From Bacteroidota bacterium (GTDB lineage: Bacteria; Bacteroidota; Bacteroidia; B-17B0; Aurantibacillaceae): DNA of 64,000 nt. Every line of letters begins with the position of its first letter. Positions within the stretch are counted from its first letter, which is position 1. The notes beneath the pieces are model-generated. The model saw only the letters and a program-made list of their open reading frames with translations, searched no databases and had not been told where the DNA came from. The stretch is taken from positions 62,001 through 126,000 of the forward strand of contig JAUXZS010000015.1 of assembly GCA_030692515.1 (NCBI GenBank), in the 5' to 3' direction. The translations under genes and the position numbers were made by a program. Shown piece by piece: positions 7,471 to 38,598 of this stretch.

Positions 7471-7610
7471 AAGCCACGGATTACACTAATTAACACTAAT
7501 TTTTGAAGCAGAATTATTTTTCTAATGACTGTAGTTGTTTAGAAAAAATAAATTACAGCAATAGTATGCGCATAAATCTAAATTTGTGAAATTCGTGTAA
7601 TTAGTGGCTT
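7471..7610. repeat. Inverted repeat, GCCACGGATTACACTAATT family
   Basis: Left arm from 7471 (AAGCCACGGATTACACTAAT...) and right arm ending at 7610 (...ATTCGTGTAATTAGTGGCTT) are imperfect inverted copies over about 30 nt with a loop near 80 nt. It lies between the 3' ends of ruvC (+) and parC (-). The arms match those of the element at 38527 almost base for base, so this is a dispersed family. Confidence 0.75.
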
Positions 7611-33284: not shown

Positions 33285-33337
33285 ATTTCAAAATCCAAAT
33301 AATTTTCACATTCAAAAAATAGTATTAAAATAAAAAT

Positions 33338-34099
33338 ATGATATCAATTAAAAATCTTCACGCCTCAATTGGCGAAAAAGAAATACTTAGAGGAATTAAT
33401 TTAGAAATTAAAGCAGGAGAAATTCATGCTGTAATGGGACCAAACGGCTCTGGAAAATCTACTTTAGCAAGTGTATTGGCAGGAAGAACTGATTATGAAG
33501 TGACACAAGGAGAAGTTATTTTTAACGGAAAAAATCTTTTAGATCTTTCTCCAGAAGATAGAGCGCGCGAAGGTTTATTTTTAGCTTTTCAATATCCAGT
33601 TGAAATTCCGGGAGTAAGTAACATTAATTTTTTGAAAACTGCCGTAAACGAAATTAGAGCTTATAAAGGTCAGGAAGATATGCCGGCTAAAGATTTTTTA
33701 GCATTAGTAAAAGAAAAACAAAAACTAGTAGAGTTAGACGGAAAGCTTGCAAATCGTAGCGTAAACGAAGGCTTTAGTGGTGGAGAAAAAAAGAGAAATG
33801 AAATTTTTCAAATGGCAATGTTAAATCCAAAATTAGCAATATTAGATGAGACGGATAGCGGTTTGGATATTGATGCTTTACGTATTGTAGCAAGCGGAGT
33901 TAATGCATTAAAAAGTAAAGATAACGCCTATATTGTAATTACACATTACCAACGCTTATTGGACTATATCGTTCCTGATTTTGTACACATTCTTTATAAC
34001 GGAAAAATTGTAAAATCTGGCGGAAAAGAATTAGCATTAGAATTGGAAGCAAAGGGCTATGATGAAATAAAAGAGAAGTTCGAAAGTTTAGAAAGTTAG
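33338..34099 (+). CDS. sufC: Fe-S cluster assembly ATPase SufC
   Basis: ABC-type ATPase of the SufBCD complex, 253 residues. Walker A GPNGSGKST at 34-42, the Q-loop region AFQYPVEIPGV, signature FSGGEKKRNEI, Walker B LAILDETDSGLD and the H-loop ITHYQRLL are all present. The last residues, KFESLES, are encoded by the first GTTTAGAAAGTT copy of the repeat array that precedes the four-helix-bundle gene, so the C-terminus has been remodelled by that insertion. Translation otherwise continues the normal SUF order. Confidence 0.96.
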   Translation: MISIKNLHASIGEKEILRGINLEIKAGEIHAVMGPNGSGKSTLASVLAGRTDYEVTQGEVIFNGKNLLDLSPEDRAREGLFLAFQYPVEIPGVSNINFLKTAVNEIRAYKGQEDMPAKDFLALVKEKQKLVELDGKLANRSVNEGFSGGEKKRNEIFQMAMLNPKLAILDETDSGLDIDALRIVASGVNALKSKDNAYIVITHYQRLLDYIVPDFVHILYNGKIVKSGGKELALELEAKGYDEIKEKFESLES

Positions 34100-34132
34100 G
34101 TTGGTTTAGAAAGTTCAATAGTTTAGAAAGTC
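34086..34132 (+). repeat. Repeat array left of the inserted four-helix-bundle gene
   Basis: Three copies of GTTTAGAAAGTT (34086-34097, 34104-34115 and 34121-34132, the last ending GTC). The first copy overlaps the end of sufC. They are imperfect inverted matches to the AACTTTTTAAC units on the other side of the gene at 34542-34569. Confidence 0.7.
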
Positions 34133-34135
34133 AAA

Positions 34136-34543
34136 ATGGGAAAAATAGAGAAGTTTGAAGATATAATTGCCTGGCAAAAAGCATTAGAATTGTCTGATTT
34201 AATATATTCTCATTCCACCGATGGATCATTTTCTAAAGATTATGGATTAAGAGATCAAATAAGAAGAGCTTCTGTTTCTGTTGTATCAAATATTGCAGAG
34301 GGTTTTGAAAGAGAAAGTAATAATCAGTTTATTTATTTTCTCAGTATTTCAAAAGCTTCAGCTGGAGAGATTAGAGCTCAATTATATATTGCTAGAAATC
34401 AAAATTATATATCTCAGGATGAATTTATATTGTTAAATAATAAAGTAATTGAAGTGAGTAAAACAATTAGTGGATTTATTGCTTATCTGAAAGGATTAAA
34501 AAAATCAAAATCTGCTGCAAATTTAAATGCAGAACTTTCATAA
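34136..34543 (+). CDS. Four-helix-bundle protein of the 23S rRNA intervening-sequence (IVS/S23) family
   Basis: A 135-residue all-alpha protein of the S23/IVP family, first known as ORFs in excised 23S rRNA intervening sequences and related to the diversity-generating accessory protein Avd. The signature is clear: FEDIIAWQKALELSDLIYS, YGLRDQIRRASVSVVSNIAEGFERES, and FLSISKASAGEIRAQLYIARN. Function unknown, probably nucleic-acid binding as a pentamer. It interrupts the SUF operon between sufC and sufD and is bracketed by inverted repeat arrays, which together look like a small mobile or RNA-level insertion. It has no catalytic motif. Confidence 0.9.
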   Translation: MGKIEKFEDIIAWQKALELSDLIYSHSTDGSFSKDYGLRDQIRRASVSVVSNIAEGFERESNNQFIYFLSISKASAGEIRAQLYIARNQNYISQDEFILLNNKVIEVSKTISGFIAYLKGLKKSKSAANLNAELS

Positions 34544-34569
34544 CTTTTTAACTTTTAAAACTTTTTAAC
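34542..34569 (+). repeat. Repeat array right of the inserted four-helix-bundle gene
   Basis: Two copies of AACTTTTTAAC (34542-34552 and 34559-34569) that can pair with the GTTTAGAAAGTT copies left of the gene, with one bulge and a G-U. Placed between the inserted gene's stop and the sufD start. Confidence 0.65.
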
Positions 34570-34575
34570 TGTCAA

Positions 34576-35850
34576 ATGATTGCCGAAAAAACAAATACAG
34601 CTCAAGTTATTATAGATAAAATATCTTCTACGTCAAGTAAAGTAAATTTTATTGATAACGATAAACTTTCTAAAGCCTTATTGTACTTAGAAAATAAAGG
34701 TATTCCTACTAATAAGCATGAAGAGTATAAATACTGTAATGTAGACGGAATATTTAAAAAAGAATTTAAAAATATAGAGCAAAAATTAAATTCAGTTACA
34801 GATATAAATAAATATAAATTAAACAATGCCTTAACAATTGTTGTTGTAAATGGAAATTATTCTGAAAAATTAAGCGATAAATTAATTTTAAAAGGTTTGC
34901 ACCTGAACGCTTTTTCCAATTTAGATAATGACGGAAAAAATTTAATTGGCACTTTAGCTAATGTTGAATCTGACGCCTTTGTGGCTTTAAACACCGCTTT
35001 TTGCGGCGATGGATTTCATTTAAAAATCGCCGATAATGAACAATTGCAAATGCCAATTCATATTTTGTATGTTTCTAGCGCTAGCGCAGAGTCTTTAGTT
35101 AACCCAAGAAATATTATCGAACTTGGAAAAAACTCTGAAGCAACTATTATTGAAGAACAAATAAATATTGGCGATTCAAAAGTGTTTACTAATTTTTTAA
35201 GTGAAAAATTTATTGGCGAAAATGCTAAACTTAATTCTTATACTTTTCAAAACGAAGGAAACAATGGTTATTCTGTAAATACTAATAATATTACACTGGG
35301 TCGCTATGCTAAGTACGATAATACAACCATAACTTTAAGCGGCACTCTCGTTAGGAATAATCACCAAGTTGTTTTGGCTGCACAAAATTGTGAAGCACAT
35401 TTAAATGGATTCTTTTCAACTAAGTCTAACCAGTTAGTTGATAATCATACATTGATGGATCATCAAATGCCTAATTGCGAAAGCAACGAATTGTATAAGG
35501 GAATTGTAAATGACAAAAGTACAGGCGTATTTAACGGGAAAATTTTTGTTAGACGAGATGCTCAAAAAACCAACGCTTATCAAAGCAGTAAAAATATTTT
35601 ATTAAGTGATGATGCAACTATTAATACAAAACCACAATTAGAAATTTACGCCGACGATGTAAAATGTTCGCATGGTACTTCAACAGGAAAGATAGATGAA
35701 GCAGCTGTTTTTTATTTAAACGCTAGAGGAATTGGCAGAGAAAGCGCAAAAAAATTATTACTTAATGCTTTCGCGCAGGAAGTAATTAATAAAATTGAGG
35801 TGGAAGAATTAAAAGAAAAAATTCTGAATTTATTCGAGAACGAATTATAA
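34576..35850 (+). CDS. sufD: Fe-S cluster assembly protein SufD
   Basis: SufB paralogue and third member of the SufBCD complex, 424 residues. It shares the beta-helix core; typical segments are NKHEEYKYCNVDGIF near 46-60, HLNGFFSTKSNQLVDNHTLMDHQMPNCESNELYKGIV, GVFNGKIFVRRDAQKTNAYQSSKNILL, KPQLEIYADDVKCSHGTSTGKIDE and LNARGIGRESAKKLLLNAFAQEV. Translation restarts after the inserted four-helix-bundle gene, only 7 nt behind its right-hand repeat array. sufS follows after 2 nt. Confidence 0.96.
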   Translation: MIAEKTNTAQVIIDKISSTSSKVNFIDNDKLSKALLYLENKGIPTNKHEEYKYCNVDGIFKKEFKNIEQKLNSVTDINKYKLNNALTIVVVNGNYSEKLSDKLILKGLHLNAFSNLDNDGKNLIGTLANVESDAFVALNTAFCGDGFHLKIADNEQLQMPIHILYVSSASAESLVNPRNIIELGKNSEATIIEEQINIGDSKVFTNFLSEKFIGENAKLNSYTFQNEGNNGYSVNTNNITLGRYAKYDNTTITLSGTLVRNNHQVVLAAQNCEAHLNGFFSTKSNQLVDNHTLMDHQMPNCESNELYKGIVNDKSTGVFNGKIFVRRDAQKTNAYQSSKNILLSDDATINTKPQLEIYADDVKCSHGTSTGKIDEAAVFYLNARGIGRESAKKLLLNAFAQEVINKIEVEELKEKILNLFENEL

Positions 35851-37071: not shown

Positions 37072-37488
37072 ATGACCATAGAAGAAATTGAAAAAGAAAT
37101 TATAGAGGAGTTTGAGATTTTCGGCGATAGCTGGGAATCTAAATATGAGCATTTAATAGACTTAGGAAAATCTTTACCATTAATTAATGAAAAACTAAAA
37201 ACAGAAGATAGAATTATTAAAGGATGTCAGAGTAGAGTATGGTTAAACTCTGAACTTATTGATGGTAAAATTGTTTATACAGCAGATGCAGATGCAATAA
37301 TTACAAAAGGAATGGTGGCTTTATTGGTAAGGGTTTTATCAAATCATAAACCAGAAGCAGTTGTGAAAGCAGATTTAAAATTTATTGATGAAATTGGATT
37401 AAAAGAACATTTAAGTCCAACTAGAGCAAATGGATTAGTTAGTATGATTAATAAAATGAAAACGGATGCTCTGATGCTAAGTCGATAG
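37072..37488 (+). CDS. sufE: Sulfur acceptor protein SufE
   Basis: Accepts persulfide sulfur from SufS and relays it to SufB. At 138 residues it is normal. The acceptor cysteine is C52 in DRIIKGCQSRVWL, with the family tail GLKEHLSPTRANGLVSMI. It begins one base after the sufS stop codon. Confidence 0.95.
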   Translation: MTIEEIEKEIIEEFEIFGDSWESKYEHLIDLGKSLPLINEKLKTEDRIIKGCQSRVWLNSELIDGKIVYTADADAIITKGMVALLVRVLSNHKPEAVVKADLKFIDEIGLKEHLSPTRANGLVSMINKMKTDALMLSR

Positions 37489-37490
37489 AG

Positions 37491-37623
37491 ATTAGTCATT
37501 AGAGTTTAGTCCTTGATTAACAAAAAGTAATAAGAGAGAATAAAACACATTAGGGTTTAATAAATTATTTAAAACAATAAGTTGCTAGGACTAAATTCTA
37601 AAGACTATCAACTAAAGACTAAT
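37491..37623. repeat. Inverted repeat in the sufE-sufT spacer
   Basis: Arms 37499-37513 (TTAGAGTTTAGTCCT) and 37587-37601 (AGGACTAAATTCTAA) pair over 15 bases with one mismatch; ATTAGTC (37491) also pairs with GACTAAT (37617). It fills the widest spacer of the operon. No ORF is inside. Confidence 0.65.
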
Positions 37624-37629
37624 AAGAAA

Positions 37630-38526: not shown

Positions 38527-38598
38527 AGCCACGAATTGCACTAATTTTCACTAATTCTTTAAACTATTGATTTGTGTTAATTCGTGTAATTCGTGGCT
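38527..38598. repeat. Inverted repeat, GCCACGAATTGCAC family, between convergent genes
   Basis: Left arm AGCCACGAATTGCACTAATT and right arm AATTCGTGTAATTCGTGGCT match in 18 of 20 positions as an inverted pair, with a loop near 30 nt. It lies between DUF2480 (+) and the HMA lipoprotein gene (-), 6 nt after the first and 15 nt before the second. Same family as 7471-7610. Confidence 0.75.

Follow-up and report, generated by a model that had tools for sequence, protein, structure and literature searches.

An S23-family gene between sufC and sufD of a Bacteroidota genome, flanked by mirrored repeat arrays, and its relatives beside core-operon genes

The window analyzed here, a stretch of 64,000 nucleotides from a Bacteroidota genome, contains an S23-family gene between sufC and sufD, bracketed by two arrays of short repeats in mutually inverted orientation. 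The S23 unit is an insertion relative to close relatives. Many other S23 genes of the genus, of other Bacteroidota, and of other phyla carry mirrored arms as well, and S23-less arrays, rare in the sampled genomes that lack S23, are scattered through most of those that carry it. These features may reflect a rarely moving element whose inverted ends act at the DNA level and would be recognized by the S23 protein, a reading to which we give an even chance. The locus, together with a decayed second element further downstream in the same operon, is composed as follows.

33338..34099, plus strand: sufC; the closing codons, GAAAGTTTAGAAAGTTAG, double as unit one of the left array, and relatives whose junction is empty show a counterpart
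34076..34132, plus strand: left array, units of about 8 to 9 bp, two copies of GTTTAGAAAGTT and one of GTTTAGAAAGTC
34136..34543, plus strand: S23 (four-helix-bundle) gene, PF05635 and TIGR02436, 135 amino acids
34533..34570, plus strand: right array, inverted complement of the left array, overlapping the 3' end and stop codon of the S23 gene
34576..35850, plus strand: sufD, SUFBD_core
37480..37512, plus strand: left arm of a decayed S23 element at sufE-sufT, overlapping the sufE stop codon
37539..37581 (approximate borders), plus strand: remnant of the S23 3' end of the decayed element, placed by aligning it with the intact G009, G024, and G032 elements
37585..37626, plus strand: right arm of the decayed element

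The gene order in the window is sufC, S23, sufD (33338 to 35850), with all three genes on the plus strand, which places the element outside any 23S rRNA gene. The open reading frame matches the profile PF05635 (8e-34, 116.5 bits, with a curated cut-off of 33.8) and TIGR02436 (4e-32, 110.7 bits, with a cut-off of 24). PF05635 is the only domain found in it, and no other domain, including the Y1 tyrosine transposase, is detected. The structure model shows a helical bundle (pLDDT 90.9), and Foldseek places it with the four-helix fold of 2gsc and 2rld (best E values of 1e-6 and 2e-5). The left units are located at 34086 to 34097 and 34104 to 34115 (GTTTAGAAAGTT) and at 34121 to 34132 (GTTTAGAAAGTC), and the right units (AACTTTTTAAC) are located at 34542 to 34552 and 34559 to 34569, with the start of the right array (34533) lying within the 3' end of the S23 gene. 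Coordinates and profile matches agree with the first-pass annotation, which had described an S23-family open reading frame with three left and two right units, inverted and able to pair. Its statement that the left array encodes the end of SufC also holds for the first unit. The unit length of 8 to 9 bp instead of 7 bp makes the window copy a minority form.

The best arm pairs of the window element comprise 22 to 23 nucleotides with 78 to 82% complementarity between mutually inverted arrays. Compared with shuffles, this complementarity has a P value of 0.025 for the flank after the stop codon and of 0.012 for the arm including the S23 end; compared with positions of the same geometry in the 64 kb, the P value is 0.020 or 0.007. 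For the window copy alone, arm complementarity is only moderately beyond chance, and the strength of the mirrored-arm case comes from the family and not from this single copy.

The SUF operon was compared in 34 relatives and the window, with several loci ending at contig ends. A tblastn search with the window S23 protein finds an S23 gene at sufC-sufD in 1 of the 35 genomes and in none of eight relatives whose SufC is 91 to 93% identical (in G010 over part of its length). The gap between sufC and sufD measures 0 to 1 bp in six of these (G009, G014, G003, G032, G013, and G010), 10 bp in G024, and 44 bp in G037, compared to 476 bp in the window. The search for empty sufC-sufD junctions suggested earlier has thus located them in close relatives, and the parallel search for repeat flanks finds mirrored repeats around many other S23 copies. 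Consistent presence of the gene in close relatives, or absence of repeats at its other copies, had been named as arguments against mobility; instead, empty sites exist and other copies have repeats. Since relatives without the insertion likewise carry GAAAGTTTAGAAA where sufC ends, the first left unit was probably not brought by the element. A target-site duplication is not clear by eye, with an empty junction of 0 to 1 bp in most close relatives.

Across the operon, tblastn detects 14 S23 elements at five junctions in 11 of the 35 genomes, some loci again ending at contig ends: two at sufA-sufB, five at sufB-sufC, one at sufC-sufD, one at sufS-sufE, and five at sufE-sufT. The window S23 protein is 77, 75, 74, and 73% identical to the sufB-sufC copies of G020, G025, G038, and G023, respectively, and the word AACTTTC is common to the window element and these four elements, while the fifth sufB-sufC copy (G027) shows only 47% identity. 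The identity of 73 to 77% and the common word indicate that the element either changed junction or came from elsewhere with its word kept. The empty sufC ends of G009, G014, G003, and G032 align with the arms of the sufB-sufC elements with a score of 27, which is attained by 1.25% of 2,000 random 50-bp windows, and that of G010 aligns with a score of 22, attained by 9.4% of random windows. Insertion via a matching word is left as a hint, as several sufS and sufB ends among 33 other gene ends reach scores of 27 to 35. The left arm extends into the upstream gene in 24 of 48 elements. In the window itself, sufB and sufC are separated by 53 bp (33285 to 33337), where many relatives carry a segment of ∼1.7 kb. 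The window also holds two gene-less hairpin-like repeats of the AATTCGTG type (38527 to 38598 and 7473 to 7608), with another word and a period of about 9 to 10 bp; their outer ends read GCCACG and CGTGGC or GTGGC, and G001 and G002 have similar words between sufC and sufD.

S23 elements decay through internal deletion with the arms left behind. The sufE-sufT junction of the window (37489 to 37629) retains both arms and the last S23 codons, and the middle is deleted; an intact S23 element occupies this junction in G009, G024, and G032, and G023 has a different deleted form. Apparent lone arms without a gene are visible by eye at sufA-sufB in G014 and at sufE-sufT in G013. A miniature without S23 is found elsewhere in the window's own genome, between two codirectional open frames (L041, 1501 to 1548; C68:262421-262468), and carries the GTTTAGAAAGTT word of the window element in mirrored orientation.

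The family is widespread. The window's own genome contains four S23 genes, located between sufC and sufD, between sdhA and sdhB, between the E1 and E2 genes of pyruvate dehydrogenase, and between nuoJ and the following gene, which we take to be a nuo gene. S23 genes occur in 32 of 40 genus genomes and in 232 of 296 Bacteroidota genomes sampled. The genus elements occupy 37 distinct sites after merging of split labels, and 103 of 114 distinct elements lie between two genes of the same strand. The S23 gene itself is under purifying selection, with a median dN/dS of 0.09 (74 of 130 genus pairs usable).

Of 112 genus copies, 72 have mirrored arms that score above every one of 40 dinucleotide shuffles, compared to 6 for the direct orientation, leaving 40 copies without arms above all shuffles. 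A comparison with 40 randomly paired flanks, taken from other elements and in part sharing site or word, is exceeded throughout by 30 of 112 copies, with about 3 expected. An arm score of at least 22 is reached by 80 of 112 S23 copies versus 19 of 139 control open reading frames. Outside the genus, mirrored arms score above every shuffle in 42 of 65 copies from other Bacteroidota (direct, 9) and in 34 of 48 copies from other phyla (direct, 7); the loci behind these counts include the best 80 of 550 confirmed loci, picked by likeness to the genus alignment, and therefore are not a random sample of the phyla.

The arms follow a common grammar. Flank autocorrelation appears at 7, 14, and 21 bp in the genus, in other Bacteroidota, and in other phyla, and no lag-7 peak is seen further upstream. 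Among elements with good arms, lag 7 scores best in 40 of 56 (genus), 23 of 35 (other Bacteroidota), and 20 of 31 (other phyla), followed by lag 8. Left arms are G rich and C poor, with AGT and GTT overrepresented, and right arms show the reverse, with ACT and AAC cores. In the left flank, heptad runs most often reach a maximum of 5 units (54 of 225 flanks), and the right flank has no peak at 5.

Words differ among S23 lineages while the two arms of each element match. Arm scores within an element average 24 to 27 in every identity bin, and scores across elements at the same site drop to 16 to 18 below 65% amino acid identity. For same-site pairs with 50 to 65% identity, the cross-element mean is 17.6 versus 26.1 within elements, and for those with 30 to 50% identity it is 16.1 versus 25.1, the shuffle average being 16.5 when computed with a longer flank than that used for the cross-element scores. 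Different-site pairs with at least 58% identity show a mean arm match of 20.0, above that of pairs below 50% (p 9e-5) and above that of same-site pairs below 58% (mean of 17.2; p 0.012), a comparison of 15 nonindependent pairs. In these pairs, the array word appears to track S23 relatedness somewhat more than it tracks the site.

Scattered arrays were counted with an AGT-N4 repeat pattern, the counts including the arms of S23 itself. The 32 genus genomes with S23 yield 843 matches (109 reversed), and the 8 without it yield 8 (6 reversed), a difference with p 6e-4. The reversed pattern is not a neutral control, since TGA-core arrays also occur; the better control, a period of 10, gives 38 matches in the 40 genomes, 22 of them in G017, compared to 851 matches for period 7. 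AGT-type arrays are absent from five S23-bearing genomes of the genus (G007, G017, G020, G037, and G038). In the phylum sample of 295 genomes, which leaves out the window's own genome, at least five matches with an AGT or TGA core are found in 203 of 231 S23-bearing versus 14 of 64 S23-lacking genomes, and with AGT alone in 172 of 231 versus 8 of 64. The association of arrays with S23 across the phylum has p 2e-19. Among the S23-lacking genomes, 20 are named as having no S23 match and 44 are assigned from their absence in the match table. When S23 status is shuffled within families, the observed value is attained in 0 of 5,000 trials. Exceptions are G133, with 281 AGT matches and no S23, and G217 and G227, with S23 and zero matches.

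The arrays can be located far from S23 genes. In G001, the 73 array matches form 31 clusters, none of them closer than 4.1 kb to an S23 gene. One array locus was inspected in each of 30 genomes: 29 of these loci lack an S23 gene within ∼1.5 kb, 5 have an inverted partner, and 8 lie inside long open frames, e.g., isoleucyl-tRNA-synthetase-like and phosphatase-like frames (names read from the sequence). In four genomes, in-frame arrays with different words occupy roughly the same position in a phosphatase-like protein (L387, L388, L392, and L409). Two further S23-less arrays are situated just 5' of a 5S-rRNA-like sequence (L389, near 1500) and just 5' of an ftsZ-like gene (L410, near 1500), both named by sequence.

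Movement of the elements looks rare, as near-identical S23 copies are not seen within the genomes examined. In three multicopy genomes (30 of 43 listed places), no S23 pair exceeds 72% nucleotide identity, barring one duplicate at a contig end, and the closest same-genome pair in the genus consists of two adjacent copies in G007 with 81% amino acid identity. Most S23 proteins at one site form one clade, and this clustering by site indicates mainly vertical descent. The earlier description as a minimal mobile element therefore fits in its anatomy, but near-identical copies at separate loci within a genome are not seen in the genomes examined. Active copy-and-paste transposition receives no support from the within-genome copies.

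For the proposed rarely moving element, a mechanism can be envisaged. One S23 gene between inverted arrays is set in sense orientation into a tight operon junction, and the arms would serve as DNA-level inverted ends that the S23 ring protein would recognize. The protein could bridge the two ends or direct a host enzyme of recombination or replication to them, leading to rare insertion and to arms that are kept matched. The same activity might perhaps spread or maintain S23-less arrays elsewhere in S23-bearing genomes. We know of no catalytic activity of the S23 protein, so a host enzyme would have to cut or copy.

Other explanations place the arms at the RNA level or separate them from the protein. 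In an RNA-level intervening sequence, the arms would pair in the mRNA and RNase III would cut the stem, separating the sufC and sufD messages; a cut stem that separates these messages had been considered in the first-pass annotation. The protein family and layout shared with 23S intervening sequences, the sense orientation of 103 of 114 elements, and the pairing of the arms in the predicted RNA fold are consistent with this, as is the intervening sequence of Coxiella, which in the available part of the source has tandem heptamers 5' of its S23 open reading frame and a terminal stem cut by RNase III for its excision (PMC4990558). Maintenance of an RNA stem should leave an excess of G.U-type over A.C-type arm mismatches, but the ratio is 102:102 in 85 genus elements and 231:235 in all 180 elements, and stricter thresholds give 197:209, 158:173, and 135:147. 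An identical procedure applied to 48 SRP RNA hairpins, whose sequences are mutually related, gives 50:2. The fold of the window unit is likewise not unusual (z-score of −0.88). Because of the kinship of the SRP sequences and a possibly fast turnover of the arms by a DNA process, which could hide RNA selection, the mismatch test counts against the RNA reading without deciding the matter; RNA-stem maintenance as the main reading is set aside on this test and its control, and we consider this alternative unlikely. In another RNA-level reading, a TRAP-like autoregulator, an S23 ring might wrap the array in its own mRNA and control translation of its own and the downstream gene. The solved S23 relative, from Xanthomonas, is indeed a pentameric ring, i.e., a ring of five four-helix bundles, according to the available text (PMC4990558), and the purifying selection on S23 and the preference for 5 units in the left flank agree with such a role. 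The arms read differently on RNA, however, so that a single-strand binder does not account for mirrored arms, and the right flank lacks the peak at 5 units, which makes autoregulation of this type very unlikely.

It is rather unlikely, though less so, that the 7-bp arrays arise passively at tolerant junctions, through polymerase slippage and hairpin-templated correction, with S23 as a separate passenger or host gene persisting beside them. Hairpin-templated correction would keep arms matched without a protein, and the G001 arrays show that arrays can occur far from S23; heptamer repeats are known in several lineages, with slippage proposed in work cited in the available part of PMC4679880. Slippage alone leaves unexplained, however, the mirrored arms around S23 genes in several phyla and the co-occurrence of arrays and S23 within families, and the word follows S23 relatedness somewhat more than site in the 15 nonindependent pairs (p 0.012). 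Movement of the arms by S23 through a reverse transcriptase in trans, as Avd acts in diversity-generating retroelements (DGRs), would be in line with the match of the S23 model to the Avd of the Bordetella phage DGR and to the DGR ribonucleoprotein (Foldseek TM of 0.70 to 0.85; E values of 0.01 to 0.08). RVT_1 is present in only 14 of 40 genus genomes, however; RVT_1 matches are lacking from G010, G016, G020, G021, G022, G025, G027, and G032, each with 4 to 7 S23 copies, and G031 shows the opposite, RVT_1 without S23. Reverse-transcriptase dependence is set aside on this co-occurrence, and such a partnership appears most improbable. An extension of the rarely moving, protein-recognized element is offered tentatively, as a possibility that we rate well below an even chance: S23 may be the trans-acting factor behind bacterial heptanucleotide repeats. 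In this joint reading, each S23 ring would recognize its own 7-bp (or 8- to 9-bp) word, and S23 together with host replication or repair enzymes would make, spread, and keep matched the flanking and scattered arrays, sometimes in frame, with the intervening sequences of 23S rRNA as one special case of the repeat-making system.

Among known systems, REP sequences with their RAYT proteins and MITEs share several features with the S23 elements: a gene between inverted repeats, scattered gene-less repeats of a similar kind, and internally deleted copies. In contrast to these, the S23 element has no transposase, and its word varies by element. Inverted ends and empty sites in relatives also connect it with MITEs and insertion sequences, from which it differs in that near-identical copies within one genome were not found (three multicopy genomes; genus pairs). 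With Avd of the DGRs, the window S23 protein shares the fold, at a weaker Foldseek match than to 2gsc and 2rld, but no reverse transcriptase lies on the contig of the window element, and the sole RVT_1 match of the genome is on contig C11. In the accessible portions of two studies, PF05635 ranks first in frequency among the Pfam families in the data of one, which deals with DGRs and immunity and remarks on its likeness to Avd (PMC10053308), and appears in the other in the legend of a figure on CRISPR-linked domains (PMC10910872).

As far as the available texts of PMC4679880 and PMC4692102 describe them, heptanucleotide repeats include TAACTGA in Beggiatoaceae, Cyanobacteria, and a few Bacteroidetes, GGGAATC in Xanthomonas, and GGGGA(T/C)T in Nostoc, with 70 and 75 convergent repeat pairs in two Xanthomonas genomes; that some bacteria are rich in 7-bp repeats is noted there without an established cause. 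They resemble the arrays described here in their 7-bp units and mostly intergenic location; unlike them, the present arrays bracket an S23 gene and track S23 presence. The word S23 is absent from the main texts of both papers on a word search, the terms sought are absent from the accessible part of a paper on rRNA insertions of CPR bacteria (PMC11270868), and no prior link between S23 and 7-bp repeats was recognized in the parts of the open-license literature available, barring the Coxiella heptamers. For S23 proteins, structures are solved and the function is stated as not known in the available part of PMC4990558. The tie between S23 and 7-bp repeats, seen as arms in several phyla and as within-family co-occurrence in Bacteroidota, makes both puzzles directly testable. 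Another known system close to the present one is the S23 intervening sequence of 23S rRNA in Coxiella, Leptospira, and others, which, in the same part of that source, likewise contains an S23 open reading frame inside complementary ends (PMC4990558). It differs in that the host here is a protein-coding operon, the S23 genes of the genus are under purifying selection, and the arms carry no sign of RNA-stem selection. The comparison suggests the 23S rRNA intervening sequence as an example of a wider element living between core-operon genes.
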